From positions 1-64,000 of the forward strand of contig CAMPDV010002907.1 in NCBI GenBank assembly GCA_946699065.1: a stretch of DNA of 64,000 nucleotides, in the 5' to 3' direction. Every line of letters begins with the position of its first letter. The first letter of the stretch is position 1. This document shows, piece after piece, positions 11,041 through 56,200 of this stretch. The notes below the pieces were generated by a model. That model was not told the DNA's origin. It saw only the letters and a list, made by a program, of their open reading frames with translations, and made no database searches. The DNA comes from Loxodes magnus (Eukaryota; Ciliophora; Karyorelictea; Loxodida; Loxodidae). The translations under genes and the position numbers were made by a program.

Positions 11041-11099
11041 TTTTAACTTTCTGATAAATTATAAATAATTAAGAAATTCTAAAGCTTTTATTTAATTGA

Positions 11100-21340: not shown

Positions 21341-21356
21341 TTTAAATTTATAAAAA

Positions 21357-23086
21357 ATGGGGTTGGAAATCTCGTGCTGTGGTGAAAATCGTTAAAACGA
21401 TAAATAGAATTTGGAAGGAAGCATGAATAATGGAGATGAAGTTTTGAATCCAGAACTATCACTTTTAAGTGTAGAAATGACAGAGGAAAGAAAAGATTTA
21501 AATAAGGCCTTTGTTGACTTAAGATCAGTTCCTTTTAAAAATATACAGGCGAAACTTTCATATTTCGAGGATTTGAAAAATGATTTTACCTTTGATAACT
21601 TGTAAATAAAGAGTGAAAAGTATGATTTATACTACAAGAATGTCCTAAGTACTTTCCTCTAGCAGAAGTTTACTCTCCAAGTTTTTTAGGTAAAAGGCTA
21701 AAATGGAAAAATAATTGATAAATAAATAGAATTTCTACAAAGGTTAGATCATCCTTTTCTAGCTTCTTCTGTGGAATATTTCTAAGATTAAAACGAATTT
21801 ACAGTAGTAATGAATTAGCTTCCAAGCTATTCATTGTAAGACATTATTAATTAATAAAAAAAATTTGAAGAAATCTAAATTCGTAAGTTAGGATATTCCC
21901 TGCTACTTTTAGCTCGCTACCTTCGTAAGAATAAAACTATTCTTTTTAGCTTCACTCCTGAAAATATTTTCATTTAGAACCCAAGAAACTTTAAGATCAT
22001 CAAACTTACAAGATTTACGGAGTCAATTATATTCGAGCATCAACCTTCAAGCAAATCTATTGAGAGATAGTTTGACTAAAACTATTATTTTTCAAATGAG
22101 CTTTATGATTACTCTCAAAAAGTAAACTGCTCAGCTGATATATTTGCCATTGGAATAATTCTCCTATAGATGGCTTTAGGAGATCATCCTAAAAATATGA
22201 TTAAAGGCTGAGAGTAAAATACATAGAATAACAAGAATAGTAATCATGAGCTACTTTTTAAGTTACTACGGTAAAATAAAAAGTATATGTCTGAAGCATT
22301 ATACGATCTATTATAAATGTGCTTTCAAATGGATACCTAAAAGCGTAATTAACCTGAATAAATGCTACAATTAGGCTTTTTCTAGGCTAAATCATCACTT
22401 AAAAGACAGAATAGAGAGTTCTTTTATAAGCTCACTGCATATTCAAAACTTAACGTTTGGCAAAGAATTATCTTCTAGTTTACCGTGCTGAAATTATTTA
22501 AATCTCAGTCAAAAATTAAATACGAGCAATCATTTTTAAGGTTGGACAAGTAAGGAAAAGGTTTCATAACTGAATCAGATTTATGTTAGATCCTGCTTAA
22601 TATAAAATAGGATAACTAAATTTATTATGATACATTTTCTTCTGGAAAGGAACCTTTCGCCCTATCTTAGCAACTGTTTTCAGTAATAGATACAACAGGA
22701 GATGGAGAATTTAACTTCAGTGGTATCCTTTTTATATTTAGAATACCTAGTTACGCATATGTTTTGGAAAATCAGTTCTCAAGAAATAGATCTGACTTTA
22801 GATTTCCTCTTTTCATGGATGGATACAGTAATATTTTATGCAGTATTAATAAGAACTAATTTAGTTCTATAGCATTTCCAATATTCCCCAGTTTAGTAAA
22901 GACTAGCAAAAAGCTCTATTAAAGCTCCTTAAGGAACTTGATTAGGATGGAAAGAAATAATTAACTAGGCAGTAGTTTGTTGATGGAATTAAGAAAAAAC
23001 TAGAAATGAATTTTAAAATCTTAAATGAATCTATTCAGAATTAGCACTTCGACTACTAGATATTTGACTCGCTTTATTACTCTTGA
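21357..23086 (+). CDS. Myristoylated CDPK-like pseudokinase with three EF hands (564 aa, two mini-introns)
   Basis: Starts MGLEISCCGEN: Gly2 fits N-myristoylation and Cys7-Cys8 fit palmitoylation, so it probably sits on a membrane. Residues ~90-320 have a protein-kinase fold pattern: LQRLDHPFL, EYFQDQNEFTVVMNQL, FTPENIFI, then SADIFAIGIILLQMALGDHP. Key catalytic residues are gone. HRDLKPEN is LFSFTPEN (Ser198 for Asp), DFG is replaced at Lys216-Leu-Thr and the VAIK Lys is not visible, so it is predicted to be catalytically dead. EF hands lie at ~397-408, 445-456 and 517-528. Removing introns 22723-22741 and 22828-22843 leaves exactly 565 codons, ending at TGA 23084. The first intron also restores the Glu at position 12 of EF hand 2. 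TGA at 22209 reads as Trp285 and is shared with the right-hand copy. Likely a calcium-responsive scaffold. Confidence 0.9.
22723..22741 (+). other. Mini-intron, 19 nt
   Basis: GTATCCTTTTTATATTTAG, GT-AG, phase 1. Splicing turns AGT-G|AA into Ser-Glu, giving the EF-hand loop DTTGDGEFNFSE with the expected acidic last residue, and restores the frame downstream. The same 19 bases are present in the right-hand copy (about 62188-62206, minus strand). Confidence 0.9.
22828..22843 (+). other. Mini-intron, 16 nt
   Basis: GTAATATTTTATGCAG, GT-AG, phase 0, between ACA and TAT. Removing it joins FSWMDT to YQQELIQFYS and leads into the third EF hand in frame. The right-hand copy has GTAATATTTTATACAG at the same place. 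Substitutions between copies just downstream are mostly synonymous in this frame (gac/gat, tag/taa, caa/taa, cag/caa). Confidence 0.88.
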
Positions 23087-28690: not shown

Positions 28691-28697
28691 ATTATAA

Positions 28698-28770
28698 GCC
28701 TCTATGGCTCAGTTGGCAGAGCATTCGCTTAGTAAGCGAAAGGTCCGTGGTTCGAGCCCGCGTGGAGGCT
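28698..28770 (+). tRNA. tRNA-Thr (anticodon AGT)
   Basis: A 73-nt cloverleaf: acceptor GCCTCTA pairs with TGGAGGC (one G-T), D arm GCTC...GAGC, anticodon stem TTCGC/GCGAA with loop TTAGTAA giving AGT, T arm CGTGG-TTCGAGC-CCGCG, discriminator T. Intronless, followed directly by a T run as pol III terminator. Internal A box (TGGCTCAGTTGG) and B box (GGTTCGAGCCC) are intact. An identical copy lies at 58155-58227 on the minus strand. Confidence 0.97.
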
Positions 28771-28817
28771 TTTTCAGTCTTATTATTTAATAATAAGTAA
28801 ACTAAAAATATAAAAAA

Positions 28818-33277: not shown

Positions 33278-36200
33278 TCATCCTTTTAATCTCAATCTGA
33301 TTCTTCTCTTTGCTTTTCTATTTTGTTTACTTTCTTCTTTATCATGATTAAAATAAAGATAATTTATCTCATCTTATGATATTTTATCTTTAGTATGATC
33401 TATATAAACTTAATCTTCTCTTTTGGTGATTTTACTAGTTATCATTTGTTACAACTAATTTTAACTTTTTGCATCTTATTTCTATTAGTTTTACTCTATA
33501 ACTTCTTATTAAACTTTCCTTTTCTTTTATTTGCTTAACTTTCATTAATTATAAAGATCTCTTATTAATCAAATTATCGAAATTCATACAGCAAAGATTG
33601 AGTAAAAGCAACAAATAAACACTAGAAACTTACCTAAGTTTTCGGCTTCTTAAAGTTTTTCATGTTTTAATGCTTTAGCACTATTAGCTCTATAGTAGAA
33701 GTTGAAGAAATAGATTATTATAAGTACTGATTCTCCTATTATTTCCTAACCAAATAACAAAGTACTTTAAAAAGGCCTACAAATTATCAAGTAAAAAAGC
33801 TAAAACAGACAAGAAAATAGACAGATTATAACTTAGAGTATTTAACACTCTACAAGCACAACAGCTGCAAAAGAAAGTAAAAATCTTCTACTCAAGAACA
33901 AAGCTTAAAAAACTACTTGTAACTTAGTATTTTACTTGATATACTCAAAGTATATCACATACTTTTCTTTCATCTCTTCTAACTCTTTGTTCACTTATTC
34001 CTAATTACTAATCTCTTATTTAAATTTATAATATTTTATGCATATTTGATAGCTTTAGAAAATATAATATAGTTGAATGTTCTAAATTAAAAACTTACTA
34101 AAATAACTACAGCAAGGAAAGAATTAAAGCCAGTATACCAATCATTTATACTAAAGTGATATAACTATAACATAACTGCATTTGTAATTTGAATATATTT
34201 TAAGTTATATATCATTGAAATATACTTTTTGTTTGTTAATTTGCTTCTCAATTTTTCTATTTTACCTTTCCATTTTAATCTTCATATTACAATAAGTATA
34301 AAATCCATTAAATAAAGTATTACTAAAATGAACAAACTACTTATTAGATTAGCTATTAAGGTATAACTCTAAAAATTCATTAAAATGTAAATTTCTTAAT
34401 TTACTTCTAGTTTCTTAGAATCTAAATCAAAATTTAGAAAGTCATTGTTATTTATTCCTGACATAAGTTCGTTATTTCTAAAGTTAATGTAATAATATGC
34501 TTTTATATTGTCTGTTCTTTTAACATCTACAAAAGCATTCATTAAAATAAGCTAAGTAATAAGAACTGCTGATAAAAATTAAGCTTAGCTCGATGAAATT
34601 TAAAATATACTAATAGTAGAAGAAACAGTGACTATAGCTAATCCAGCAAAATTTGCATAAATTTGTATTTAAGTTATTAGATTTGTATTTTAAATAAACT
34701 ATTCTTCTTAAGTAGATATATTAAAGTCGTCTAGGCTGTTATAAGGATTTAAGTTATCATCATTTTAATTTTCATTAGGGAATACTTCTACACAACTTCC
34801 GTCATACAAAACATATCCTTCAACACATTATGTGCAATATTGTCCATGCTCTTCACATCTTTCACACTTATCAATTTATTCACTACACTACTTACATTAT
34901 AAATCATTTTAAGTTAAAAAATACTCATCTGAAATACATTTTTTATAACTCTTATTTATATCACATCTCTCGCAATTTTATATCACTTCACTACAAAGTT
35001 TACATACTCCATCTTAATCGTAATCTTATTCTGTCTCTATACAGCTCTATTCACAATAATTATTTGTTAACTTCAATAAAATACTTTCGCACTTGTAACA
35101 TTATTTTCCATCTTAAGAACACTCTGAACAATTATAAAGAGTTTCTTAACATTATATGCATTATGATGATTAAAGAAAATACCTAACTTTACATTGCAAG
35201 CATTCTGTATCATTACATTTTAAACAAAAGCTAAATTACTTATCACAAGGTAAACAAATATCATCTTAATCAGAATCTTACTCCGAAGCTATACAATGAC
35301 CTTAGCATGTCTAGTTGGTAAGTTTTTTATCTTAAAAACATGAAAGACATGTTTGATTGTTACAAGTAGCGCAAAATTAGTTATAGGAAGTACATGAAAT
35401 ACAAGAATTACCATATTTGTATGAGGAATTAAAGCATTTGTAACAGATATCTCCAGATTAGGAGCATTCTTCACAAAAGGGAATAGTCACATTGCAAGAT
35501 TCACAATAATTATCCAAATCTTCATCTTGTTGGGTAGAAGGACAAGTTTAAGAACAAACTAAATCCAAAGAAAGCTTATAGTAACAAGTACAAGAATCGT
35601 TTAAGTAGCTTCAACTATCTAAGCACTACAAACAGTTATTAGCCCTATTTCCATAACATTTTGTACAGTTTGATTCACATGAAAGGGGAATAGAAAGAGA
35701 GATAAAACCTTAATTGGGCTAATTGAAAATAGTTTAAAGCTCAATTAATTTTAAAGCATAATTTTTATAATATTTATGAGAGTATATATACCCTCTATAT
35801 TTTAAATTTGGCATAATTTAAAAAATATTTATTCTCTAATCAAAATCTATTCAGGTTGCATTTTGACTTGAATTTGCTACGAGTACATTATTGAGTTAAG
35901 AGTGAGTTATAGCAAAGAAAATTTATCCATCTTAAGTTAGAGAAAATCCAACGAAAACTCAAATATCATTTATTAAACTGACTTTTATATCATAGGATTA
36001 TGCAGTAATGCTTAAATTTATTATAGCAGTGAAGTAGTTTTTTAGTTAAAAGAATCTTAAGATAAAGCTAACCTAAAAAAATGACTTTAATTCATTCAAA
36101 TTTGACTATAAACTCCTAAATTATTTTTTGGTTGTTAGTTTTAATCAAATTTAATTCAAGCTGTAATGCTCATTTAAGTTTGATTTGAAGGATCATATCC

Positions 36201-36347
36201 ATAATCTTTAAATTTTTTGAATTAACTGCTCTAGTTTCCTGTATAAAATGTAGGTTAATTTGGAACTTGAATGTAGAAAAAATCCTGATTAGCCAAAGAA
36301 ATAGAAAATATCAAAATGCTGAGCATAAGGTGCTTTTCCATTTTCAT
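33278..36347 (-). CDS. Large cysteine-rich multi-pass surface protein, paralogue 1 (one frame break)
   Basis: Starts MKMEKHLMLSILIFSISLAN, a signal peptide. Next comes a concanavalin/LamG-like domain (MSITAWIKFDQ, INDIWVFVGFSLTQDGQIFF), then CxxC furin/growth-factor-receptor-like repeats, then about six membrane helices (SYTLIANLIS, RRFLLSFAAVVLVECQ, EIIGESVLIIIYFFNF, FVFICCFY-type) and a charged cytosolic tail ending at TGA 33278. A 17-nt phase-0 intron lies at 34082-34098. Frame arithmetic needs one extra base: near 36105 the lectin domain slips by one base between NNLGVY and SNLNELKSFFQ. This is a single-base loss, real or from assembly. One TGA (near 34289) sits where paralogue 2 has Gly. 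Probably a cell-surface receptor or adhesin. Confidence 0.85.
34082..34098 (-). other. Mini-intron, 17 nt
   Basis: On the minus strand GTAAGTTTTTAATTTAG, between AVVIL and NIQLYYIF. Phase 0. The same 17 bases occur at the same place in paralogue 2, and a 20-nt version in paralogue 3. Confidence 0.9.
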
Positions 36348-39300
36348 AAATCTTAAATTTTATTAAAAATACAAAAGATAAAATTAAAAATCACTTAAAA
36401 TAAAATCATTTTATTGCCTCTTTTATAATTCTTAAGTTCAACCTATTAATTTTTAAGATTATTCTAATTTACTCACATAACTCTCCTTAATTTTTATGAT
36501 AAAGATTATTTAATTTAGTCTACTTCACAAATACTCAAATTAGCCTGAGTACTTCAAAAATATTTGCTTATCATTCTTTTAATGTTGGTTATATTTAAAA
36601 ACATTTTTAAGCCTTTATTCACATTGTCAATAGCTTTATTCCGCTTTTTAGTTAAAGATATTAATTATATAGTTAATTTTATGTATTTTATTTCTTTTAA
36701 TATTTTATCTATTTGATTTTGTATAATTAAGTTGAAAGCTATTGAAGGTCTTTTTACTAAATTTTTCTTGTTTCTTCATTCTAAATTTTTTTTTAATTAT
36801 ATTCACTCTTATTTTTAGAGTATATTGAACTCCTTATTTTTCTCAAAATTTACAGCTCTAATTTACATATTCAAATAGTGGTTTACGTTAATATCTAATT
36901 GTTTAGTGATGGTATGTTTTAGAAAAAATGCAAATGTTCCTCGGTTTTAAATAGATTTTTCTCTTTAAAATGTTTATTTCTTATTTTAATGTAATTAATA
37001 ATGAGGAGTTCAAAACCTCACTATCTTTATTTGTTTTAAAATTTAAAAATCTATATTAAACTTATCTACGATGCTTTCATAACTTTATAATTTTAATTAA
37101 ATTAATAAATTTATATATCAAATCTTAAAATTAAAGTATAATTGTTTGCAAAAGTTCTCTCTTTCCTTCTTTTGTTTCAAACATTTATCTTTTTAAACTT
37201 TTTAAAGCCTTGTAAACATAGAAATTTTATGTTTTCTACCTTTCTTTGATTTAATTTTCTTATTAATCATTCTTTTTCCTTTTTGCTCTACATTTTTTAC
37301 AAGCTAATAATTGTTATAGATTCTAAATGAACTTATTAAGTTTTCTTAATACAAAAGAACGCACTAGATAATTAATAAAAATAAAGGAATATAATATTTC
37401 AGAAGTATATTTATAATAGTTACTTTATTATTATTTAGTAGAACATGCAAAATTATTAAGATAAATTTATAAAGAATAATAAAATTATTAAGTGTCTTTT
37501 ATCTATTTCTATACATTTATTATAAACCAAGCTACTTAAATTTTAAGATTAAGCCTTATTATTTAATTAAAAAACTTCATTACGAAATTAAATTAACTTC
37601 AGCGTACTCTTATTATTTGTATTATTTTTAGGAAAAATTTCTTTGAATTTTCTAAAATTATTAAATTTATACTAAATGAGGACTAATTAAAAATCCTTTA
37701 TTTCTTTTGGACTTATATAAAGAAGATGCTTCTTTATATAATAAAATAATAAATTTATTACTATATACTTTAATTACCTTTATACTTCTTTATTTTTTTT
37801 ATTTTTATGATACACATTAATTTTAGATTTTCTGTTTTGAGTATTAAGATCCTTGAAAAATTATCTAAATTAATAAAAAACGAAATCCATTTATCATAGT
37901 TAGTCGAAGACACTTTTAAATTAATTAAAATTGTTTATTATCTAATATATCAGGAATTAAATAATTCCTTTTTCTTCTTTCTAACTTTCCATTTTAGGTA
38001 ATTTTACTTCTAAACTAAGTATCTTAATAAAAACATCAGATTCATGTTTATAGAATAATAATTCTAGTTGCTTTATTTAATAAAAGTTTTTATCTAAATA
38101 ATTATCATTCTAATATTCATGTAGTATGAGTGCTAGATTCAATCATCTAAGTTTTAAAATTCATTAGCAAGATAGATAAAAGAATTATAAAATGCCTATT
38201 TTTCAAGCTTAATTATTAGGTCTCTGATAAAGAAATAATTTGCTTTGTATTCCTATTTAGATGTAAGGTATCTTCAAGAATGAGATTTATAATTTATATC
38301 TAATTTTATTTATACATTGCAGATTTATCTTGACACATTTTGTGTTGCAAGGATTTTTCACCAAAGTTCTTCAAATAGCCTTCGATAAATTAAAAAATCA
38401 AATAAGCTAAATAATTGAATATAAATTTAGTCTAATTCCTCTAAATAAATTAAAAGAAACTGGATATATTCTAAAGAAATTTTATTGTCTTTAAAAAATT
38501 ATTTATATTTCATCTGCTGTCTTGATTCTAGCTCTTTACACTTTTCTTTAAATTAGGTAGTCTAAGTCTAAAAAAGATATCATATTAAGAAAAGCTTGTA
38601 TTTAACGACCAGCTGCTTTACCTATTTTTTATAAAATTAAATAAATATACAATTAATCTTAATAAAGTTGATTCAAATAAATAAAATGCTTTATTAATAT
38701 CTTAATTTTTACAAAGTATAGGTAATTTGTCTCTCACTATTTGAGATATAAAGAAATGATTGCTCTTTCTCTTAAGTGATTTAATAACTCTATTATATAA
38801 TTATCCTTTTTCATCATATCATATGTTTAAAGTTATTAATATTAATTTTAATTTCTAACTTTTATTATATTAGCTTATTACATTTTCCTTTATCTCTTAA
38901 TTTATACAGAAAGTAACTCTTCGCTTCTTTCTTTTAGAAGGAGATTCAAGGATAAAAATATAGTGAATTTTTTTGTTGTTGATATAGAAATAAAATTTAA
39001 CTTCTATCTTTTAATTCTAAAGCTAATTTATGTAATAAGCTTATCAACTATGCTTTATACCTGTTAAGTTTATTCTCTTTTTGCATTCAATTAGCTGAAT
39101 ATTTACTAAAAATGACTATCTTTCTTCTATATGTTTTTGATTATTATTATATAAAGTAAATTAGAATCTCTAAGCTGTAGGATATCAAAGTAAATAATTA
39201 ATGTTTCGCGAAAAGAAAAATTAATTAAAATGAGATGAATGCTAGATATATTTTTATTCTATTGCTAGCTTTAGATTATATATTTACTTCTTTTAAATCC

Positions 39301-40043
39301 TATTTATCCTTTCTTTTCCCTAAATATTGCTAATTTTTAAAAATTTATAATAAAGAGGGGAAATAAAAGTTTAGAGTATCTAAAATTTTAGTAAACAATA
39401 AATAAAAAAGCAAGCTAAAATGATATTACTAATAACTTTAGTTATATCCTTAAAAGCTTAATATAATGCAATTGGTTTACATTAATGTAAGCTAAGCATA
39501 AAGTTTATTTTAATAATTATCAATTAAATAAATAATTTTAAGTTGCTTAATCTAACTACATAATGTAATACATTTATGAATTAGGGATAATAGTACAATA
39601 CCCTATTACATCAAAAAATCATATTTATTTTTAGATAACTAAACTAGCTAAATTCATGTTTTAAAACTATTTAAGAGAATTTAGAAAGTTAATTCAAAAA
39701 AAATAAATAAAAAGTGAATATTATGATGAAAATTGATATAATGCTATGAATCTATGATAGCTATATTTCCAAAGAATTTTATACAAGCCACGAATATTAA
39801 AATCTAATAACTTTGATAATATAATTAAAAATAATAAATGTATATAAAATAAAAATTTAATAAGAATAAGGTTCTTAGAGAATAAAATAAATAATGGAAG
39901 ATAATATTTAAAGAGAATTTCAATTAACTAACTAATAGAAAATAAAATAGCTAGTTAAGCTTTATAATGATAAGCCAGCAAATTGTTTATAATTGTATAA
40001 ATTTAATTAACTAAATTCTAGTAAAAAAGTTAAAAGTTAAATC
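36348..40043. other. AT-rich spacer between paralogues 1 and 2
   Basis: No gene supported. A minus-strand stretch at about 38250-38620 gives a fairly mixed peptide (ARIKTADEIQ, YPVSFNLFRGIRLN) and could be a small exon, but there is no motif or paralogue to confirm it. Confidence 0.4.
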
Positions 40044-42991
40044 TCAATTTTCTAAAATCATAATTCTCCTTTTCTATTCTTTGATTTTCTACTTCCTTTT
40101 CCTGCTTTTAACACCTTGATTTAAAAATTTTATTTTTGAATCGTTTTGTTAAACTTTATCTTTAGTGAGATCTTAAGAACTTTTTTCCTCTCTTGAAGTT
40201 AATTTATTTGTAGAACTTAGCTCTAATTATATGACGCTTTCGTTCCTTATATCTATGTTCATTAATCTTTATGCGATAATTTCTTATTAAACTTTCTTTT
40301 TCTTTTATTTGCTTTATTTTCATTAAGCATGCAAATCCCTTATTAATAATACTATCGAAATTGTTAATGCAATTATTGTATAAAGGCAGCAAGTAAACAC
40401 TTGAAACTTACCTAAATTTTCAGCTTCTTAAATTTTTTCATTTGCTAATGTTTTGGCACCATTTGCTCTATAATAAAAGCTGAATAAATAAACTATTATA
40501 AGCACTACTTCACCTACTATCTCCTAAAACAGTAATAAAGTACTTATAAAAGGTCTGCAAAGAACTAGGTAAGCAAGCTGAAGCAAACAAGTTAATAGAT
40601 ACATTATTACTTAGATTATTTAGAACTCTACAAGTATAACAGCTGCAAAAGAGAGAAGAAATCTTCTAATCAAGAAGAAGATTTAGAAAATTACTTGTAG
40701 CTTAGTATTTTACTTTATTTACTCAAAGTAAATCACATACTTTTCTTTCATCTCTTCTAACTCCTTTTTCACTTGCTCATCATTTGTCTAATTAAACTAT
40801 ACCTTAAGTTTAAAATATTTGATACATATTTGATAGTTTTAGAAAATAAAGTATAGTTGAATGTTCTAAATTAAAAACTTACTAAAATAACTACAGCAAG
40901 GAAAGAATTTAAGCCAGTATACCAATCACTTAAACTAAAGTGATATAACTATAACATAACTGCATTTGTTATTTGAATATATTTTAAGTTATAGACCAAA
41001 GAAATATATTTCTTGTTTGTTAGTTTGCTTCTCAATTTTTCTATTTTATCTTTCCATTTTAATCTTCCTATTACAATAAGAATGAAATCTATTAGGTATA
41101 ATATAGCTAAAATAAAGAAAGCACTTATTAAATTAGCTATTAAGGTATAGCTCTCATAGTTCATTAAAATGTAAATTTCTTTATCTACTTCTAAATTCTT
41201 AGAATCTAAATCGAAGCTTAGAAAATCGTTGTTATTTATTCCTGACATAGGCTCGTTACCTCTGAAATTCATGAAATAGTATGCGTTTATATTGTCAGTT
41301 CTTTCAACATCTACAAAAGCGTTCATTAATATAAGTTGAGTAATAAGAACTGCTGAAAAAAATTAAGCTTAACCTGATGAAAATCTAGATAAAGCAATAG
41401 TGGAAGAAACTGTCATAATTACAGACCCAGCAGTATTTATGTAAATTTCAATTTAAGTTACTATATTTGTGCTATAAATAAACTATTTTTCAAAAGTTGA
41501 AATATTAAAGTCATCTAGGTTGTTATAATAAACAAGTTCATTATCACTTTAATTCTCAGTTTAGTTTAGCAAGCTTTAATTAGAAATTTCTTATATGCAA
41601 CTATTATTATTAGTAAGAGTATAATTCTACTAGCAGCTTATGCATTCAACACTTTAGTTGTTATTTGCTCAAAAATACTCGCAGTTAGAAATTATTGAGC
41701 AAGGTTAGCAAGTCCCGTTAAATTCAAATTCCCTTTCTTCACATTTACGACATTCTTTTCCATCTTAAGAGCATTCAGAACAATTATAAATAGCTTCTTA
41801 GCATTATTTGCATTATTACTAATAAAGGAAATAACCTGCTTTGCATTATAAGCATTATGTATCATTACATCTATCACAAAAACTAAATTACTAATCACAA
41901 GGTAAACAAATACCATCTTAGTTATAATCTTATTCTTAGTCTATACATTAATCTTAGCACGTTTAGTTGATAAGCTTTTTACCTTATTAGCATGTAAGGC
42001 AAGTTTAATTGTTACAAGTAGCACAAAATGGATTGTATGAAGTACATTAAACACAAGATTTTCCATCTCAGTACGAAAAAATAGAGCATTTATAGCAGAT
42101 ATCTCCAGCTTAAGAACATTCTTCACAAAAGGGAATAGTCACATTACAAAAATCGCATTGATTATCTAAGTCCGAGTCTTATTAGGTAGAAGGGCAAAAT
42201 TAAGCACAAACAATATCAAGAGAAAGTTTCTGAAGACAAATACAAGTATCGTTCTAATAAGTTAAACTTTCTATACATTATAAGCAATTATTGCTATTTT
42301 ATCCATAACATTTTAAGCAGTTAGAATAGCATGGAAGATTATTACCAAGAGAGGTAAATCCTTGATTTGGTTGATTAAAAATAGTTGTAATATCGTCTAA
42401 ATTTAAAGCATAATTCTTATAATATTTAGGAGAATAAACAAATCCTCTATATTTAGCAGCTTAAACAACTTATCAAATAAAGTCACTTTAATTAAATTAT
42501 ATTCAATAAGCATTTTGAATTGTATTTGTTTAAAATATATTATTAAGTTAGGAGTGAGTTAAAGCTAGAAAAAGCTATCCGCTTTAGGTTAAAGAAAATC
42601 CTACAAATACTCAAATATCACTTACAAAGCTGACTTTCAAGTTATTTTATTTTTTATCATTATTTAAATTAGTTTAAATGTAGAATTCAGTTGATTGCAT
42701 TGTAAAATTTTGATTAATTATTAAATTAATGCAGTTTTGCGGATTTTTTAAAATTTTTGCAAAAATACCCGAATTTTAAGGTTAGTCTTCTTTATCGAAT
42801 TTAATTCAAGCTGTAATGCTAATTTTAGTTTGATTAATAGGATCATATCCATAATCCTTAAATTATTTTTATATTATAGATTCTGTACCTTAGTAATATC
42901 TCACAGCATCTGTATCTTAAATAGGAAAAAAATCAGGATATGCTTAAGAAATAGAAAAGGCTAAAAAGTCTAGAATCAGAATAATTTCCAT
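40044..42991 (-). CDS. Large cysteine-rich multi-pass surface protein, paralogue 2 (976 aa, intact)
   Basis: Best-preserved member. With the 17-nt intron (40866-40882) removed the span is exactly 977 codons. The start MEIILILDFLAFSISQAYPD is a signal peptide. A LamG-like domain follows (ISITAWIKFDK, VSDIWVFVGFSLT), then cysteine-rich repeats (CYSNCLKCYG, CEECSQAGDICYKC, CNNQTCLTC, CDRCNDTQCLQCKAGYF, CSECSQDGKECRKC), then a membrane domain starting about residue 560 (NIVTQIEIYINTAGSVI, SYTLIANLISAFF) and a Lys/Gln-rich tail ending at TGA 40044. Internal TGAs read as Trp at sensible sites: SD-I-W-VF, FSY-W-DGKSC. Homologues would be the ciliate membrane proteins with growth-factor-receptor Cys-rich domains; the function is unknown, perhaps surface recognition. 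Confidence 0.92.
40866..40882 (-). other. Mini-intron, 17 nt
   Basis: GTAAGTTTTTAATTTAG on the minus strand, identical to that of paralogue 1 and in the same codon position. Its removal is required for the exact 977-codon frame. Confidence 0.92.
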
Positions 42992-45900
42992 TTTATTTTA
43001 TAAAAATAGTGGTTCTATATGAAACTAAAAGAAACTAGTTAAATAATTAATTAAAACTTAAATATACATAAAATAAAATTATTATTAAAAATATCTACTT
43101 TGTGTTTAGTTAAATTCTTAAAATAAATAAAGATAAGGCTTAATACTAATTTAAAGGTATATTAAAATATATATAGAAAAATATTTATTTGAGAAACTAA
43201 TTTTAATAACTTATTTGATTGTATCTATATTTATTTCACTCAAATAATTATTAAAGGAGAACATTTTTTTGTAATTAACTAAAAAAGGATTTAATTTAAA
43301 AAATTCCTTTAATTTCAAATTTTCATGATAAAATTTAAAATCTAAGAGCTGGAAACTCAATAAAAACTTAAATATTAAATTTAATTTTAAATAAAATTAT
43401 TTAAAAAATGTTTTATTAATAAAGGAAATAGTTAAATCATAATAATTTTAATTTAAAAATCAAATATCTTTTTAATTTATTCAAATTTGGTTAAATTTAA
43501 ATAAAATTAAAATTAAAATTTAACATTATTTATCATATTTAGAAAACAACTTTTTTTTATTTCTACTATTTAGTAAAAAAGAGTAACAATTTTTAAATCT
43601 CTAGCAAAATAATTAGGTGAATATATTACAATCAGTAAATTGTAATTTTTAATTTTTTCAAAATCAAATAATTTAATGATCACCTTAAAAACAGCATCTT
43701 TAACTTTATTTGAATAGAATTTTTCTGTGATATTATCTGTTATATTAGATTTAAAAAATATTAAATTATAAAAAATCAAATTATAAAGTATTTTATAAAA
43801 AAATAAAAATCACAAAATGAATAAGCAAGAAATTAGTTTATTAATTAAAAATAATAATTAAATAAGTACTTTAAAAATAATTAAGTTAATTTAAATAAAA
43901 ATATTTATTTAGAAAACTTTATTAGCAATATCAATAAAGAAAAAATATTTTATTTAATTGATTCTAGAATTTAACTTAACTTGATGATTACAATATGTTA
44001 AAATAAAATGAAAGAGAAAGGTGATAACTAAAAGAATTTAACGTATAAAAAGGAAAAGTTATTGATTAATTTTATAATACTTAGAAATATTTATGAAATT
44101 TGAGTTTCTATATCTAATATTCGAGCTGAAGTTAATTAAAAAATTATATTATTAAAAATTTTAAATAATAAAGATATATAAATTTAAAAAATCTCTATTA
44201 ATTATTTTTAATTTTTAAATAATTTAATTATTTTATCATAGCTTTTTAGATAAAAATTAATTACAAATTTTTTTTCTTTTGCATGATTCTACACTTTTAA
44301 CTTTTACTATTTTAATTGAAATTTCTATAAAATTTGTATAATTTCTTTGCAACATAGATTTCTTTAATCCATGTAAAAAATTTAAATTTTAATATAAAAT
44401 TAAATAAAAAAGTTTAGATAATTAATTAAAAGCTTAAAAATATTTGTTAATTATAATTTAAATATAATTCACAAAGAGTAGATTATTTATTTATTTTAAT
44501 TAGTTTATTTTATTTTCTTTTATATCTATTAGATCTATTTTATTTTTATTACTTTTGGCTTTTAATTTTTTGTAAAGATTAATTTAAATAATTATCTTAA
44601 TATTTTTATTTGCATATTTAATGAAGATATTTATTTTATCTAGTATAATTTTAATACAATCAAAGAATAAATAAATTCAATTTTTCAAATTAAAATAATA
44701 ATAATAATAAATTAATTTGATTCTTCCTTTAATATGATCATCACTATTTTAACTAGTTAAATTATTACTAATAAAAACCAAATAATAATATAAATAATGT
44801 TTATTAAAATCTCTATGCTGATTCAATTTAATTTTCTTAAATATAAAAAGCTTCTCTTTCTTATATGATAAAATATTAAAATTGGAATATTGATTGTTTA
44901 GATGCTAATGTATCTATAAGAAAGCTATTAATTTTTTAAATATTTTTAAATTTAATTAAAATAGTGAAAAATGATGAAGCTAAGTTTGCTAATAGCTCCT
45001 AAATTTAGTTTTCTATTTATTATAATTTATTAATGAAAAATTAAAATTAAAAGAAGCTAATATTTAATTATTTTAAGGTATCAAAAATAGCTTTATTTCA
45101 TCTTTTCATGTTGTTAATTAAGTTTTTCGAATGTTGAGTTAAAAAGGATTTTTAAATGAAACTAATAACTTTTTTAAATTAAAAATAAACATTATGTATA
45201 GAGCATACCTAAAGGATGTTTCTTATTATTATCTTAATAGAGAGATAGAAAATCCAATTTTAAAAAGAGTAAAATCACATTTAAATCTAATTTTGCAAAT
45301 ATTAGGATTAAGCAGGTATTATAAAGATAGATATGAATGTTTCTTTATACAAATTACTTAACTATTGTAAATAGTTCCTAAAATATAAAGTTGTTAATAC
45401 ATTATGAAGAGATTATAATAGATCTAATAAATAAAAGATAGAAATACTAAAAATCATTTAAGCAAGCTATCTCTAAAATAAAAATAATTTACTTAAATAA
45501 ATATTAAAAGCTATAAGATTAAGATATTAAGGCTTAAATGAGTATAATTTAAAATTTATTTTTTATTTTGTTTAAGATATTGATAAAATAATATAAACTT
45601 TAAACTGAATAACTAAAGTTAAATAAATCATATATATTTATAGCATCAAAAATTTAATTATAAATAAATATTGTTGATTGAATTGTAGTGCATATTAGAA
45701 TTATTTGGAATTAAGTTTAAGCCAAATTTAGGAAGATAGGAAAGTGGAATATTTTAAATAAATATATACTTTCTTAGCAATTAGATTTATAAGTTACTCA
45801 TTATGAAATTTATTAAGCATTTGATTTATAAAAAATTTAGTTATTTTTCAATCCTCATTCTACTTTCGTCGCATTGAAATCTATTTAATAGTGTTTTAGT

Positions 45901-48900
45901 TATATTTAACATGGATTTTATTTTTAAAGATAATCAAAAGAAATTATTAAATCATTACTTTTATTACTGAGAATACATAAAATTCCTTTAAGGACTAGAA
46001 ATTAATTGGAGACTACTTCTTATATATTAATTTTATATTTTTTTATTCTTTCTCTGTTAAATTATTCTTTCATTTTTTGATAAATTTATATTAAGAAGAA
46101 AAAAAGTTAAAGATAATGTTGAAAAGAAAATATTAAGCGAGAGTAAGAGCTTTTAGATAAAAAGTGTAATAATTTAAATAAAATAAAAGTTTTAAATGTT
46201 TATCTTAAAAAATAAATAAAAATAACAATTTAAAAAGCCCTCTTTAAGCTAACTAATAAAGCAAAAATAACTATTTATAAAATTTCAAAAAAATAAGCTT
46301 AATTAAATCTTTGAAGCCACAAAAAAATCAAAGATATATTAATGAAATATTTTATCTAGCTAACAATGTCATATAGACATCAAAGATTTACTATCACAGT
46401 TATTTTTATATTTATGAGGATGGAAATAAATTGACTAGTTAAATGTATAAATTTAAAGTTTTTTTTATTTTTCCTTTTAGCTATTTATTTTCTTTATTAC
46501 TAAATAATTGGCTTTACAATTTAACCTTTCTTAATAATTAAACTTATAAAATTCATTTTAGATTTTCCTTTGCATCTATTTAGCAAAATAAATTAAAATA
46601 AAATAAATTATTTTTTAATTTGAAATAATTTTCATGAAATTACCTTAGCTAGCACTTTAGCATAAGAATAGAAAAGATTATTGTTTAAAAGATCTTTGCT
46701 TCTAAAATAATATTTTAATAGTTAATTTAATTATGAATTCTGCAATAGATTATTAGAATCTATATGCCTTACTTATTAAATTTATTAAAATCCATATCAA
46801 ATTTATTTTTAGCAAAATATCTAACTTTAACTATAACTGTGAAGTTAATATATATTAGTGCTATTCAGCTCACATAACTAAGTTTAGTTAAACTTATAAA
46901 TGCCATAAGAATAATTATTACACCAGATAACGACAAGACTCAAATCGCTTATATACCAAATATTCTCTTATAATTAAATAAGTAATTTACTTTTTATAAG
47001 TTACTAACTTAAATCTTGGTATGCTCATTTAATACTTCCTTACCTTTATATTTCTAAATTAGGAATATTTATTAAGTTCTATTTAATAAAATTATTTACC
47101 AACTATTTTTACTAAGTTACCATTAATTATCTTTAAATAGCTAAATTAGCAAACTAACTCTGCTATAAGTTTAGAATCTATTTTTACTTAGATCTCCTTA
47201 TTAATATAAATATCTAAAGCAAAGTTATAAAATACTCTATTTAGTTGTAAATCAATCTACAATTTCTATTTCAAGCTTCTTTTAGGTTAAAATTATCTTT
47301 AATTTAGTTTTTTTAACTTAAAAGCTGGAACATATCTTATAAAATAATAACTCATTCATATTTCTTACTCTACTATTTTATTTATATAGCTAAAGTCTAT
47401 TCTTTAATAGATATTCTTTACTAAAAGTAAATTGAAAACTATTAGCTCTTTATTTTAAATTTTATGGGTTATAAGTAAAATAATTAGAAAAATGTATTTA
47501 AAATTCCTACCTACTTCTATAAAATTTATAGGTGGGAAACATTTATTTAGTTATTTACTAGGTAATTAAATAAAGAAAGAGGGACAAAAATTAAAAATCT
47601 TGAATAAACGATTAAAGAAAAAAATTACAAAGGCAAGACAAGTATAAGTTATGATATAGATTAAATAAGCATTAAGATTGAAAATGTAGACTAATAAAAA
47701 AATGAAATTTTTTAAATTTCCTAAATTATTTTAATTTTAAATTCAGATATACGATAAATTTTGTTGTATACACTTAAATATAAGTATTAAATTAATAACT
47801 AAAAGATATCAATAAGGAATATTTTTAGCTATAAAAAAGCTTTTGAAATAGTTAAGGATAGTTAAAAATTATTTCTTAATTTAAATTTTTAAAAAGGAAT
47901 TTCATTAAAGAGGTAAAGGATAAATCATTAAATAAGGTAAAACTTAGCAAATTTAATAAATGTTCATATTAATATGAAACACTTTAATCCAATTTTATTC
48001 CTTTTTATTTTAAAGTCTTAGCTGCTCAAATTTTGATTGTCTTAAGCCTTCAAACTATAATAAATTCCACTATATTGACTAGAAGTATAATTATTAATAA
48101 TTTGATGCTTTAAGCTATAAATAGAATGTTCTATTATATTTAATTGAAAATCTGATTTCAGGCTATTAATTAATCTTAGTTATTTAGTGCAATTTTATTA
48201 TTCTTTTTAACCTTAACTAATAGTAGCCATAGATCTCATATAATTGGATTTATTTATCTTATGATAACTAAGTTTCTTAATTAAACGTTCTTCTTGACTT
48301 TATACCTTATAGCAATAAATTATATCTAGTTTCATAATGCTTTTACTATTTAGAGTCTAATTAATATATAAAGGAGCTAAGAGTAAATTATTGGATTGAA
48401 GTTATCTTTATTTAAGCTAAATTATATCTAACTAAAAGCTCCATTACTATACTAAAGAAGTTCCAATACCCTCATATACAATTTTTATAGTTATAGCTTT
48501 CTCAATTAAGCAATAGGACTAAATATTGAATAAAGGAATTTTACTTTCTATCCTAACTAGAAATATGAACTTTATCCCCTAATGAACTTAATATCTCTTC
48601 TTAATTATCGAAGAATTAGCTATAAAATAAGCTAAGAAATAAATAAATTCTAGATTTAATAGTAGTCAGCCTTAGAACACTTTGATTCTGATTTAATCTT
48701 TAGCCAACAGTAAAATATATAATTAATAAATCTTAATAGCTTAAAGGTCATAGTAAGGTTTCGATAAATGAGTATGATAAAGTTTATTGTTTATCGTAAA
48801 GGTAATTACTCGCTTTATTTGTATCTAATTTATACGAAAGCATTTCAAAATTATCTTTTGGAATATTTTACTATGATAATATAGAAGACTTTCAGCTTTT

Positions 48901-49305
48901 CTCCTTTGCTCAATTTTCTTAATCCAAAACTTAAAGTCAATTTTTTAAAAAGAAATAATCCTAAATTTATTCTGTATATGAGTAATGTTTTAGAAAGAAG
49001 ATAAAAAATAGATAAAACATATAGGTATAAAAAGAATTAAATGGAAAGAGAGGAATTAAATTAGCTAGGAGAAAAAGCATAATTTTAATTATAATTAGCA
49101 TATCTTATAAACTCTATGCTGTCAAAAAATCTAATTAGTCCTTTAGTAAAAAGGTTTGAATTTATCTAAAATGATTAGAGACACTAATTAGAAATATTTC
49201 TAACTCTACTAAAGAGAAAATAATTAGTAGATATATCTTTTAAGTATATGAAAAAGGTAAAGTTGGAAGAACGTTTATAAAGGATAAGCTTTATTAAGAA
49301 ATAAA
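42992..49305. other. AT-rich spacer between paralogues 2 and 3
   Basis: 6.3 kb of very low GC DNA. No gene, RNA or repeat could be supported by eye. Confidence 0.4.
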
Positions 49306-52300
49306 TCATTAAAATTTAATTATTAAGTAAAATATATCGATTTCATATGTCTATCGCCATATGTATTTTTCTTTTTACCTTTTGCGTGCTTTTTAATGAG
49401 ATGTAAATATGGGTTCTTTAATCTCCTCTTATAATATTATGTCTTTAGTAAGATCATTTTATAATTTTTGTTTTCTTCGAGTAATCTTGGTAGTGCTAAT
49501 TTATTCTATCTTCAATGTATTATGTCTTTATGTGATTTATTTGCTTTCTTCTTAAGATGACTATTAAATTTTTTATTTTTTCTACTTATAAATCTTCCAA
49601 GATTCTTATAAATCTTCCAAGATTCTTATAAATCTTTAGCTACTAAGAAAGTTGAAATGGCCAGTCCACAGATGGTGTAAAAGCAACAAATTAGTACTAG
49701 AATCTTCCCTAAATAATCAGCTTAATTAAATTATTTTTCTGTCAACTGCTTTTTACTTATTGCATGATAATAGAAATTAAAGAAGTATATTACTATCAAC
49801 AATCCTTCTCCTACTATTTCTTAAATAAACAATATAGTTCTTGAAATAGGTCTACACAAAACTAAGTAAGTAAGCCAAATCAGACAGTGAATTAGATACA
49901 AAATAATTTGGGCTATTTAAGTTTCTACAAGTAAAACAGCTGCAAATGAAATAAATAGCCTTCTCAATAAGAAGAATGTCTAGAACATCGCTTGAGGCTT
50001 TGTATTTTATGCTTTATGGTCAAAGTGTATAATATACTTTTCGTACATTTCATCTTACTCCTTTTTAACTTTTTCATCTTTAGCTTCTTCGTTTTTGACC
50101 TTTAAATAAAAATATTATTTATTTATTTAATAGCTATAGAAAATAAAGTAGAGTTGCGTAATCTACAAAATTTAAAACTTACTATAATAAAAATAGCTAG
50201 AAAAGAGTTAAAGCCAACATATCAATCGCTGATATTAAAATGGTATAACTAGAGCAATGCAGCATTTGTGATTTGAATTGATTTTAGATTGTAAGCCATT
50301 TTGATAAAATTCTTATTGGTTAATTTTCTTCTTACCTTTTCTATTTTTTCTTTCCAAATGAAGCAACTTATGATTATAAATAAAAAGTCTATTAAATATA
50401 AGATAATTAAAACAAATAATGCGCTTATTATATTAGCTATTAAAGTATAGCTATTGAAGTTCATTAAGATGTAGATCTTTTTATTTACTATCAATTTCTT
50501 AGAATCCAAGTCAAAATTTAGAAAGTCATTGTTGTTTATTCCTGACATAGGTTGGCTGCCTCTGAAGATCATGTAATAATAAGCATTTATATTTTCTGTT
50601 CTTTTAACATCTACAAAAGCATTCATTAAAATGAGCTGATTAATTAGAAGAATAGATAAAAATTGAGCTTAACCTGCTGAAAATTAGATATAAGTCACAG
50701 TTGCTGAAACTGAAGTTAATACTAATCCAGCAAAAGCACCATAAGTAGTGGCCTAAATTGTTATATCAGTATTGTAAATAAACTATTTTTCAAAATCTGA
50801 TATTTCGAAATCATTAAGGCTTTCGTATTGACCGTCGTCATCATCACTTTTACTTTCAGAGAAATTTTTTTAATTTTCGTTAGAAATTTATGCTTAACAC
50901 AAAAAGTTATCAAGGCTGAAATCTTGTTTGCATTTTGTACATCCAATCGTATAATTCTAAATTACTATGCATTATTCACATTAAGGAATCGCTGAGCAAG
51001 GAATGCAAGATTAATTTAATAAAATCTGATATGACTCGCAAGTTATACAGGCATTTTCTAAAGAAAATTTATGTGATTCGTAGCATTTAATGCAAACTTG
51101 TCCTTAATAATTGCATCTCTCACAGTATTAAATGGAATAATCACACTTTAGGCATATTTAACCTTATCTATAATGAGTTTCGTTTGGACATTATTAAACA
51201 CAATAATTTTCGAATAAAGCAAAAGGCTCTAAACACTTATCACAAATTTGTCCGTTTTTACTGCATCTTTCACAGTTTTATATGGATTTTTCGCATTTAT
51301 AGCATTCTTATCCCTAAGCAAAGTAACTATCATCTGGACAATTTTATACGCAAATACTTTCTAGATTTAAAAAAGGTTTTTAGCATTTAACACAAAGAGT
51401 TCCATTCTCACTACATTTTTCGCAATATTAGATTGATTAATCACATTTTTTGCATGTTTAATCTTAAACATAATAAGATTAATTAGAACACTCCTAATCA
51501 CAAGAATTCTCAAATCAAACAAAAAATTCGTTACATTAAGAGCAGATTTTACCATTTTCGATACACTTATAACAATTTTAAATTAAATTATCACATTTAT
51601 AGCATTTTTGATCTTAAACTCAGTGAGTTTCATTTGGGCATTTATCTGCACAGCTTCCATTATATAAAAAATATCCTTCAATACATTTTGAGCAATATTA
51701 ACCATGCTCATCACATCTTTCGCAATTCTTTATTTCTTCGCTACAAAGTTTACATTTTAAGTCTATTTGAGTTTAAAAATATTAATCCGATATACATTTT
51801 ATGCAAATCCTGTTTACGTTGCATCTCCCGCAATTTTATATTGCTTTACTACAATATTAGCATACTCCATCTTAATCATAATCTTATTCTGTTTCTAGAC
51901 AATTCAACTCACATGAGTTATTAGTTAATTTTAAATAATCATACTCACACTAATAGCATATTTTTCCATCTTAAGAGCATTTAGAACAATTCTTAGCTGC
52001 TTCTTAACATTATTTGCATTATTATGACTATAGAAAATATCCTAATTTGCACTCTAAGCATTCTATATCATTACATGTGTAGCAAAAGTTAAACTAATAA
52101 TCACATGGTTAGCAGATTTCATCTTAGTTGTAATCTTATTCAGTTTCAATGCATTAATCTTCACATGTATAATTGGTCAGTTTTTTATCTTGTTGACATT
52201 AAAGACATTTTTAATTGTCACAACTAATGCAAAAAGTGTTGTATTCTGTACAAGATACGCATATATTTTCCAATTAATAAGATGAACTTGAACATTTATT

Positions 52301-53200
52301 ACAGATATCTCCTTATTATCTACATTCCTCACAAAGTGGAATAGAAGCATTACAGAAGTCGCATATATTATTATAATCTGAATCTTATTGTGTAGAAGGA
52401 CAGTTTTATTAACAAATACCATCCAAAGAAAGTTTTTGATTACAGATGCAAGTATTACTACTAAAATGGAAAGACTCATAGCATTGTAAACAGTTATTCT
52501 CAGCAGATCCGTAACATTTGCTGCAAAGTTAATTGCACGAAAGATTATCGGATAAAGAAATAAATTGTTGATTAGGTTAATTATAAATATCTCATAAATC
52601 ATCAAGTGCTAAAGAAAAATTTTTATAGTATTTGAGAGAGTAAATATACTCTCTATATTTATTAGCTTAACCTGAAATGTAAAAATTACTACTTAGATCA
52701 AAACCTTACCAAACAGTTAACTGCTGCTCTATAGTGGAGAATTTATTAGCTTAAGAATGAATTATACCCAAAAAAAGTTTCCCACTTTTTATAACTGAAA
52801 ATCCAACAAAAATTCAAATGTCATGAATCAAAGTTACTTACAGGGTAGCGTCTTAGTTTGCTACTTAGGTTTAAATTTTAACTAAAAAGATAGTTTATTA
52901 GTTATTTTAACTTTGTTCCACAGATAATTATATAAATCCTGAAGGAGATTATCTAACAAGAATATAAGTTCCTCATTAATTTTACTAAGCATTTCTATCA
53001 AACTTTAGCCAGGCAGATATACTTATTTTTTATTAAGTCTAGGGATTGTAATTATAGTACTGAAATGATTCTATAATATTATCTTGAGAACCAGAATAAT
53101 ATGTAGACTCATTAGGAACTAAAATATTAAAAAAATCAGTTTAAGCGTTGCTAAAGGAAATAGCCAAAAGGCAAAGTATCAAATTCTTTACCACATGCAT
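49306..53200 (-). CDS. Large cysteine-rich multi-pass surface protein, paralogue 3 (longest, tail frame broken by a 20-bp repeat)
   Basis: Starts MHVVKNLILCLLAISFSNAQ (signal peptide), then the LamG-like domain with SISAWLKFDRN (Trp coded TGG here) and a Cys-rich region much longer than in the paralogues. Extra units repeat the pattern CxxC-E-NG-x-CxxC-(F/Y) (CERCSKNGQICDKC, CEKCSENGTLCVKC, CERCDEHGQYCSKC), about 60 residues each pair. The membrane domain matches its paralogues and a 20-nt intron lies at 50163-50182. The span minus the intron is 3875 nt. Removing one 20-bp tandem unit at 49584-49635 gives 1285 codons and restores the tail (LTKDIILQEEIKEP aligned with HTKDKISQDEINY), ending at TGA 49306. 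So the allele has an expanded repeat that shifts the last ~90 residues, or the assembly does. Confidence 0.87.
49584..49635. repeat. 20-bp tandem repeat, 2.6 copies, inside a coding tail
   Basis: Unit CTTATAAATCTTCCAAGATT at 49584-49603 and 49604-49623, then 12 bases more. The unit is not a multiple of three. The paralogues have one copy-equivalent here, and only removal of a single unit puts the conserved C-terminal tail back in frame. Confidence 0.92.
50163..50182 (-). other. Mini-intron, 20 nt
   Basis: GTAAGTTTTAAATTTTGTAG on the minus strand, at the same codon junction as the 17-nt introns of the other paralogues. The length difference (3 nt) with conserved ends argues that it is spliced, not translated. 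Confidence 0.88.
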
Positions 53201-56200
53201 TTATATTTTAAACAAATTTTAAATGAATTAAAAGTTAAATTCACAAGACTAAAACTTATAATGTAGATTCTTTTCAACAGATTAAAATCAAAGTCATTCA
53301 ATAAGAGAATTTAATTAAATTATAAAAAGCAAAAGTAAAATCAAAAGCAAAAATTAGAGAATGAAAGTCATATTTAAGTTGAAAATGAATATTATAATTT
53401 ATTATTGATTTTTATTTTTGGTTATTCTGATCTTTCCCTCATGTTTATTTTAAAATTAATAGTTATATTTTTAACTAAAAATAACTTGCTTATTGAAAAA
53501 AATAAAGTCAACTTTACCTTAAGAAAAGCTATTTTATAAGCATGCTATTTCTCTATCACTTTTTTTATATTTTTAGTAAAGATTTTTTGCTGAGTTTCTA
53601 TATATTTATGAAGTCTAGCAAATTTCCTAGAATACAAGAATTGAGATACTTTTGAATAAATAGTTTCTTTAAAATTCTAAATTTTTATTTTGTTTTAGTA
53701 TAAAATTCAAATAATAATTTGTATGCAAGGATATTAGTACGAAATATAAAATTCTGCCTTTAAAAAATTTCTTTATCTAAGCAAAAAACTCAGCAAATTT
53801 TAACCTAATATACAAAGCTTGTTAATAAACAAAAAGAAGGATTAAAGCTTAAGGAGCTTAAAAAACTGTATAAAAACAGAAGTGAACCATAATAAAAGAA
53901 AATTATAATTAATACAGCGCACTACTTTGACCAATATTCGTCATATAACAATTTAGATGAAATATTCTTTTTTAATACTATGTTCATGCTTTTAATTCTC
54001 AACATAGCTTTTAAATTAGCTTGCTCTAATTTCAAGTTATGCGAATATTATAAATTTTAAATAAAGAAAAAATCTAAAAAAGTAAAATAATAATTAATTA
54101 GCGTTATCTTGAGTTAAGCTTCTAAATTTTCTTCATTGCTGTTTTAAAAGTTTAATAAATGCTAGTGATTTATTTTCTTAGATTTATATTCGTGTATTAT
54201 GGTAGGTTATAAAATATATTATGCTTATATAACTAGATTGAAACTTTATTTTCATCTTATAATAGAAATTATAAAAGCTAACCATTTTAAATTATTTTCT
54301 CATGATTGAAATCTAAAACTAAATTTAAAAGAAAGAATTGATAAAATATAGCCAAGTAACTTTATATTATAATTATAAGTAAGATATTTTATAACTATTT
54401 AATAGCAAACCTAGCCAGAGATTTAAATCACATTTTAATTAGATATTAAAAGATAATTAAGAAATTGCAAAACTCTCTTCTTAATCAACTACTATACAAG
54501 CAAAATTTATTTTTTCTCCTAAATTAAAATAATTAAATCTTAACCCTATACAAAAAATAACGATCAAGTTTCTAATTCCTAGAGTTATACTGCAATCACA
54601 AAATATCCTATTTAATTTGTTTATTTTTTAATCTAAATTTTCATTTATAAACAGCATATAAGTCGCATTTATATTTATCTTTTTAATAACCTTAATGCCT
54701 TTCCTCTAAGCTAGAAAATAAAAAGGAAACCAATCATTTAATTGAAAAATTAGTTAAATTTCCTGATCATGTTTGTATAAGTTTATTAAGAGCAACAAAA
54801 TAAAATAATAATATATGAAGAAATAAGCGAAAACTATAAAAATATATAGATAAAATAACCTCAAGTCTGTTTAATAAGATGTAATAATTATAGACAAAGG
54901 AGTTATTTAATGGATCTACTAGCTAAATTTTAATCATTTTTCTTTTTAATATCCAAACTTACTTAAAATATCCTTATTTAATATGGTACTAATGTCTGTT
55001 GTACTTTTAAGAATTTATAGAGCTTAATCATGAAATACTTAAAAGAAATCTCTTTAGTTTTTATTTATCTTTGTATGATAGAGGTAAAATGAATTACTTC
55101 AAGAAGAGTGAACAATTTTTAATGCTATTTATTCAATCTCGTTATAATCTCCAAAGCTTCCTTTTTATATATTATACACGCATATATTTAACTATATAGT
55201 TAATGCATAATTATAGATTTCATTTGCTTGGTAATTTCTATTTATCTTTTTTTATTTTCTATCTTCGAGAATAAAGGATATAAATTGTATATTTAAAGAG
55301 TCAAAATCTTTTAATACTATATTTATATAAATGAAACAAAGCTCTATTCACATGAAAACTAATATAAGTTTTTATTTGGAATCTTAATTAATTTGAATAA
55401 AATAAAAAAATATTTTTGATTACATCTAAAGTATTTACATTAATTTAGTTTTCTTTTTTCTTTTGCATAAGTATCTATAATCTTTTAAGCCAAATTTGCT
55501 ATATAAGCCTTTTTGTTTCATTTTAATCTCAGCATATCATAATTATGTTTATCTGAAAATATGATGATTTCCGTTGTTAATAGGCGAAGAAATTTTGATA
55601 TTGCTGTTATATTGAATCTAAGCATAGTTAATCTGAAAGTTCATGATAAATTTTACAAGCAAGTATGATTAATTGAAGCTTAAGGTTTCTCTACTTTATG
55701 AAACTAACCTTTTATCTACTTTATAATTATTTTGCTATCAAATTTAAATTTCTATAGCAGTTCTAATAAATCTAAATTTAGCTATCTAAATTTGGCTAAA
55801 TAATAATTATAAAGTTATTTAGCTAATAGAGCTTTAAGTGAAAGAAGTGTTTTAATAGTTCATATAATTATATCAATGATTGTAATTTCTTTAATTTTAA
55901 TGTTTAATTGTCAGAAGTATCATAGATAAATTAGTATCAAGTAAATAATTTGCTAGGGCTAGTTAAACTTAAATATTATTCTTTATCTATAAAAGTGTAT
56001 GAAGTTTCCAATGCAATGAGCATAAAATAAGAAAAATACTTTGTAAGCTTAATGTTTAATTATGTAGAATTTACAAAGGGTAATTAAATTAAGGATATTT
56101 GAATCACAAGAGTTTCTAAACTGTTTAAATGAAAAAATTATAAAATAAATTTGAGCAAAAGAACTTAATTTAAGAATTATAGTAAAGTTGAAAAAACTTA

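Follow-up and report, generated by a model that had tools for sequence, protein, structure and literature searches.

TGA as tryptophan and as stop in the Loxodes magnus genome, tested from a 64,000-base window: agreement with the published karyorelict code

Can a single codon specify an amino acid inside genes and end translation at their close? The question is raised by a window of 64,000 bases (21.9% G+C), lying in contig C2907 (CAMPDV010002907.1) of the genome assembly of the ciliate Loxodes magnus, which comprises 705,730,643 bases in 7,843 contigs. On the minus strand of this window three paralogous genes (A, B and C) place TGA and TGG at the same conserved tryptophan. A codon with two meanings, one sense and one stop, defeats gene prediction by fixed codon tables and offers a natural test of how ribosomes distinguish the end from the middle. 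The window is almost certainly part of a karyorelict macronuclear genome with the context-dependent code listed as NCBI table 27, in which TAA and TAG are glutamine, and TGA is tryptophan inside the coding sequence and the sole stop at its end. The assignment of TGA as tryptophan inside genes and as stop at gene ends is correct, but it is the already published code of karyorelicts. The code of Loxodes magnus is in print with the same three assignments, TAA and TAG as glutamine and TGA as tryptophan or stop (PMC11441545, in the part covered), and the finding is therefore already known. Another source gives Loxodes UGA as stop and UAR as glutamine, sense use of UGA being absent from the part covered (PMC6935857). 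The original prediction for this DNA was thus a correct blind re-discovery of the code from raw sequence. What we add is a quantitative agreement between TGA and TGG over 70 protein-kinase domains, together with an account of the genes for tRNA-Trp and eRF1 in this assembly.

In aligning the three paralogues we gave no meaning to TAA, TAG or TGA, each of these codons being masked as X. The original prediction had claimed that one tryptophan of the family is written TGA in A and B, and TGG in C. The codons read on the minus strand are exactly these (Table 1), and the comparison goes deeper than had been proposed, since three sites and not one are mixed in this way. TGG is present in four columns of the alignment. 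Three of these have TGA in at least one paralogue and the fourth has TGG in all three, while none of the four contains any codon other than TGG or TGA. The codons TAA and TAG, taken together, were aligned with lysine 34 times, glutamine 33 times and serine 28 times, against a background glutamine share of 2.2%. Downstream of the TGA at 36156-36158, paralogue A carries a one-base frame break relative to B and C, near 36.0 kb. This may reflect a pseudogene, an assembly error or an unrecognised intron. An intron was sought there, but no good GT-AG pair was found by eye, and the position was kept as a frame break. The name lectin-like that had been given to the family is unconfirmed by Pfam at E 0.01, A and B having no match, and C a weak match to Furin-like_2 (E 0.0058, 17.3 bits; family cut-off 28).

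In order to examine codon meaning outside the window, we turned to protein-kinase domains. A search of the genome with PF00069 scored 136 domains among 5,592 candidates, of which 70 were read and used. The three codons were again masked and the domains aligned, and each codon was then judged by the ordinary codons sharing its column. The counts include 66 of the 67 TGA sites, one being left out because its column held fewer than 20 ordinary codons. The mean tryptophan share of the column was 0.578 for TGA (n = 66) and 0.588 for TGG (n = 109), and columns with a tryptophan majority held 50 of the 66 TGA sites and 83 of the 109 TGG sites. Tryptophan was enriched 88.7-fold at TGA and 90.2-fold at TGG; cysteine was not among the four residues most enriched at TGA. 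The cysteine codons behaved as a mirror image, with cysteine enriched 15.7-fold at TGT and 11.9-fold at TGC, and with tryptophan not among the four most enriched residues of either. Tryptophan made up 40% or more of three columns, in which TGG and TGA numbered 39 and 23, 14 and 18, and 30 and 9. Glutamine was enriched 4.3-fold at TAA and 4.8-fold at TAG, compared with 6.2-fold at CAA and 4.3-fold at CAG. The agreement of TGA with TGG in these columns is as near to proof as sequence can give, and it accords with the paralogue comparison. The glutamine values likewise support the meaning that had been proposed for TAA and TAG.

Does TGA also terminate genes? Coding ends were estimated by codon bias, using the codon frequencies of the kinase domains with TAA, TAG and TGA scored as zero. 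Thirty-nine of the 70 kinase loci were kept, and the other 31 were dropped because there was no end within 1500 bases or because the end lay fewer than eight codons from the domain. The end zone was taken as -5 to +9 codons around the estimated end. In-frame TGA made up 28 of the 585 codons in this zone and 24 of 3120 upstream, an odds ratio of 6.5 (p 2e-10). An in-frame TGA was present in the end zone of 25 of the 39 genes, compared with 12 and 9 of the 39 for the other two frames. Neither TAA (31/585 versus 151/3120, p 0.60) nor TAG (14/585 versus 51/3120, p 0.23) was enriched at these ends. Coding TGA is described as depleted just upstream of the stop in Loxodes magnus, in the part of the source covered (PMC11441545).

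A second line of evidence on termination is provided by the release factor itself. A sequence search found a pair of eRF1 genes on one contig, separated by about 35 kb (Table 1), a further locus (L079) being rejected because by eye it resembles pelota. Under the table 27 code both genes are open over 436 codons with TGA at codon 437, and neither contains an internal TGA before the terminal one. They differ at 60 of the 436 codons, 41 of the differences being synonymous and 19 non-synonymous under the same code, and in both the glutamine of the GGQ motif is written TAA, in keeping with TAA as glutamine. The G+C fraction went from 0.32 to 0.18 in the 60 bases following the TGA, and then to 0.28, 0.15 and 0.23. 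The ungapped identity of the two copies fell from 0.98 to 0.52 past the TGA because of a one-base insertion or deletion about 15 bases after it (by eye); the flanks are otherwise alike. The enrichment of TGA at estimated ends and the TGA ends of both eRF1 genes together support TGA as the only stop, at the level of sequence comparison. The claim that the genes containing internal TGA also end in TGA is borne out on other genes of the genome, but could not be demonstrated on the three lectin-like genes themselves. Alignment with human eRF1 shows an intact NIKS core and the substitutions E55A, T58R, S60Q, S70A and Y125F. The predicted proteins differ at positions that other work has assigned to stop-codon recognition, and these changes fit the published explanation of the code; the original prediction had called for this check.

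How might UGA be decoded as tryptophan? ARAGORN found no tRNA-Trp among the loci retrieved before a pattern search for tRNAs was made. A pattern for the D arm and anticodon then gave 15 matches over the genome, and the ten that were read included two tRNA-Trp(CCA) genes, both with a full anticodon stem of 5 base pairs (bp). The suggestion that this might be the sole form of tRNA-Trp(CCA) here, contrary to the literature, was overturned by a DNA search with one of these two genes as query, in which 40 of 131 candidates were scored and nine of the 40 were read. Contig C110 holds five of the 40 scored matches, C7736 one and C148 the other 34. Contig C148 thus carries at least 34 tRNA-Trp(CCA)-like copies with the same score, of which 33 stand in tandem at a spacing of 241-242 bases and one is inverted (Table 1). 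Three copies were read, the inverted one and two of the tandem array; their tRNA sequences are identical, with the anticodon CCA. All three have a U27.C43 mismatch that leaves an anticodon stem of 4 bp and a loop of 7 bases. These genes were missed by the pattern because it required GGTAG, whereas they have GGCAG. A tRNA-Trp(CCA) with a 4-bp anticodon stem has been reported in Loxodes and credited to Swart et al. (PMC13092985, PMC12005148, in the parts covered).

The genes on C110 are of a different kind. Three of them (L082, L083 and L095) are tRNA-Trp(CCA) genes with a 5-bp stem, and L096 is a poor tRNA-Trp gene that ARAGORN did not call. The same contig has tRNA genes at L097 (7-79) and L098 (8-80) with anticodon arms for Arg(CCU) and Met(CAU). 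Their acceptor stem and T arm are close to those of L082, so that they look like one body with swapped anticodon arms. L082, L095, L096, L097 and L098 all have one additional U in their T stem, which L083 lacks.

A number of points weigh against the reading of TGA as tryptophan inside genes and stop at their ends. Where TGA faces an ordinary codon in the paralogue alignment, only 6 of 31 pairs, corresponding to 3 of 17 columns, have tryptophan; in the remaining 25 pairs the partner is L, Y, C, F, S or another residue, and the window alone is suggestive and not conclusive. In the kinase domains 16 of the 66 TGA sites lie outside the majority-tryptophan columns, as do 26 of the 109 TGG sites. 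The coding ends are estimates and not observations. A usable end was lacking for 31 of the 70 loci, and in 14 of the 39 genes kept the end zone had no TGA, which is likely to result from rough end estimates and unmodelled introns. The reversed tRNA pattern gave 44 matches, more than the 15 of the pattern itself, so that most of the matches are chance, and the 5-bp genes on C110 mean that the 4-bp gene is not the sole form. Moreover, both the sense and the stop meaning are read from sequence comparison. Could the internal TGA codons then be real stops, in genes that are pseudogenes or products of assembly error? The frame break in paralogue A and the 25 pairs without tryptophan might be read in this way. 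However, random stops would not favour tryptophan columns, and in high-scoring kinase domains TGA lies on such columns as often as TGG does. The kinase statistics therefore oppose the suggestion, and we consider it extremely improbable. We give no more credence to the possibility that TGA encodes cysteine, as in Euplotes, or selenocysteine. Cysteine is the only ordinary partner in 2 of the 17 TGA columns of the paralogue alignment (columns 1073 and 1128), but the kinase columns assign tryptophan to TGA and cysteine to TGT and TGC, isolated selenocysteine sites not having been searched for.

If TGA is tryptophan inside genes, is it the only stop at their ends, and which tRNA reads it? In a code of the Condylostoma type, known from another ciliate class (PMC4967479, in the part covered), TAA and TAG would also be stops at transcript ends, and the 14 ends with no nearby TGA would leave room for a few such stops. 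Yet neither codon was enriched at the estimated ends and both eRF1 genes end in TGA, leaving this a very slender possibility. That TGA is read mainly by an overlooked tRNA-Trp(UCA) is somewhat less remote, though still improbable. The search for tRNA(UCA) was partial, depending on one D-arm pattern that would miss genes with GGCAG, and on a single tRNA-Trp query for which 40 of 131 candidates were scored. Within that partial search no tRNA(UCA) was found: of the 11 UCA-type pattern matches 8 were read, and neither ARAGORN nor Rfam at E 1 recognises any of these 8 as a tRNA. The tRNA-Trp genes that were read carry CCA, and the 4-bp stem is a published alternative route for the reading of UGA (PMC13092985, PMC12005148, in the parts covered). 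The tRNA evidence thus fits the published explanation in its 4-bp tRNA-Trp(CCA), while on tRNA(UCA) it extends as far as the partial search. The conclusion that emerges is that the karyorelict-type code of the original prediction, with TGA as tryptophan, TAA and TAG as glutamine and TGA as terminator, holds in the tests on other genes of this genome.

A mechanism may be outlined on this basis. The tRNA-Trp(CCA) with a 4-bp stem would read UGG and, through a near-cognate match that is tolerated, UGA also; at a distance from the transcript end it would outcompete the altered eRF1. At the last UGA, closeness to the poly(A) tail would let eRF1 win, as in the published model (PMC4967479, PMC11441545, in the parts covered). 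We put forward more tentatively, and as an idea that could well be wrong, that reading UGA as tryptophan depends on gene dosage. The set of at least 34 tRNA-Trp(CCA)-like copies, the three read all having the 4-bp stem, might then provide the UGA-reading form in bulk, with the 5-bp genes read on C110 standing apart in an apparently decaying tRNA cluster, and an eRF1 changed at both Glu55 and Ser70 might tip the competition. The parts of the literature covered contain no earlier description of the tRNA-Trp amplification or of this set of eRF1 residues, though either may already be in print.

Table 1. Positions of the features discussed. Positions are those of the window unless a contig is named.
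Feature	Position	Strand	Basis and remarks
Two WD40 repeat matches, two frames, TGA at repeat W positions	6454..6692	+	Pfam PF00400, by eye
Protein-kinase match (21708-22379), then EF-hand matches (about 22524-22724); in-frame TAA, TAG, TGA	21708..22724	+	Pfam
Paralogue A	33430..36407 (about 36.4-33.4 kb)	minus	Ends approximate; signal-peptide-like start, Cys-rich repeats, hydrophobic C-terminal part (by eye)
Paralogue B	40208..43048 (about 43.0-40.2 kb)	minus	Same family as A; ends approximate
Paralogue C	49628..53290 (about 53.3-49.6 kb)	minus	Same family as A and B; ends approximate
TGA, conserved Trp (SITA-W-IKFD), paralogue A	36156..36158	minus	Codon read and three-way alignment
TGA, conserved Trp (SITA-W-IKFD), paralogue B	42806..42808	minus	Codon read and three-way alignment
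TGG, conserved Trp (SISA-W-LKFD), paralogue C	53009..53011	minus	Codon read and three-way alignment
TGA, second mixed Trp column (QNAT-W-IDFD), paralogue A	35851..35853	minus	Three-way alignment
TGA, second mixed Trp column (QNAY-W-IQFN), paralogue B	42503..42505	minus	Three-way alignment
TGG, second mixed Trp column (QLTV-W-QGFD), paralogue C	52709..52711	minus	Three-way alignment
TGG, third mixed Trp column (SIND-W-YTGF), paralogue A	34138..34140	minus	Three-way alignment
TGG, third mixed Trp column (SLSD-W-YTGL), paralogue B	40922..40924	minus	Three-way alignment
TGA, third mixed Trp column (NISD-W-YVGF), paralogue C	50222..50224	minus	Three-way alignment
eRF1 genes, two (L080, L081)	C196:19713 and C196:54613	not given	Sequence search
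Tandem array, 33 tRNA-Trp(CCA)-like copies (L092, L093)	C148:157290-165068	not given	DNA search, two copies read
Inverted tRNA-Trp copy (L094)	C148:155434	inverted	DNA search, read

Other genes had been proposed in the window, and these fared variously. The WD40 units with TGA at tryptophan positions are borne out by PF00400 matches of E 1.5e-6 and 4.7e-9, the codon positions being judged by eye, and a kinase-like gene is present with a PF00069 match of E 1.8e-23. For the glycosyltransferase there is a weak match only (PF04488, E 0.0079, 17.3 bits; family cut-off 23). The adjacent TGA codons attributed to a LINE (long interspersed nuclear element) do occur, as TGATGA at 10655, but the element itself lacks family confirmation, since no Pfam family was matched at E 0.01 in the three forward frames of 8001-12000.

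The window contains an inverted pair of similar kinase-like genes at 20976-23538 (+) and 61327-63950 (-), the first being the one with the kinase and EF-hand matches. Both read SADIFAIG at a point where many kinases have tryptophan, and they are possibly pseudokinases. A tRNA-Thr(AGT) gene also occurs twice in opposite orientation, at 28697-28771 (+) and 58154-58228 (-), with a tRNA-Asn(GTT) beside the first. A codon model that took the three paralogues as its seed gave little in gene finding; a kinase-trained codon model, which was not used for gene finding, marks 21.75% of the window as coding.

Positions 1-1303 of the window form a tandem array with a period of 27. One regular expression finds 46 GT...AG units there, mostly of 22-24 bases. 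A stricter expression finds 42, compared with an average of 3.7 in shuffled sequences; 30 begin with GTAAG and 36 end with TATAG. The units are split by variable spacers of mostly 3 bases, resembling tiny introns placed back to back with 3-base exons. In the part of PMC11441545 covered, 'orphan introns' are mentioned once, in a legend.

How does the code read here compare with those of other organisms? The code of Tetrahymena and Paramecium (NCBI table 6) has the same TAA and TAG as glutamine and TGA as stop, but there TGA is not known as a tryptophan codon. With the karyorelict nuclear code of Loxodes and Parduczia (NCBI table 27) we find no difference: TAA and TAG are glutamine, and TGA is tryptophan or stop according to its position in the message, the gene ends here having been estimated and not taken from transcripts. 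Context-dependent TGA is shared with the code of Condylostoma magnum, in which all three stops are ambiguous, whereas here only TGA is enriched at ends. Moreover, C. magnum is said to have no tRNA-Trp(CCA) other than the 4-bp form, while here there are 5-bp genes as well. The nonstop code of Blastocrithidia likewise has UGA as tryptophan, read there by a tRNA-Trp(CCA) with a 4-bp stem, and a change at Ser70 of eRF1; there, however, UAR is glutamate, UAA is the stop and the change is Ser70Gly, whereas here Ser70 is replaced by alanine (PMC12153298, in the part covered).

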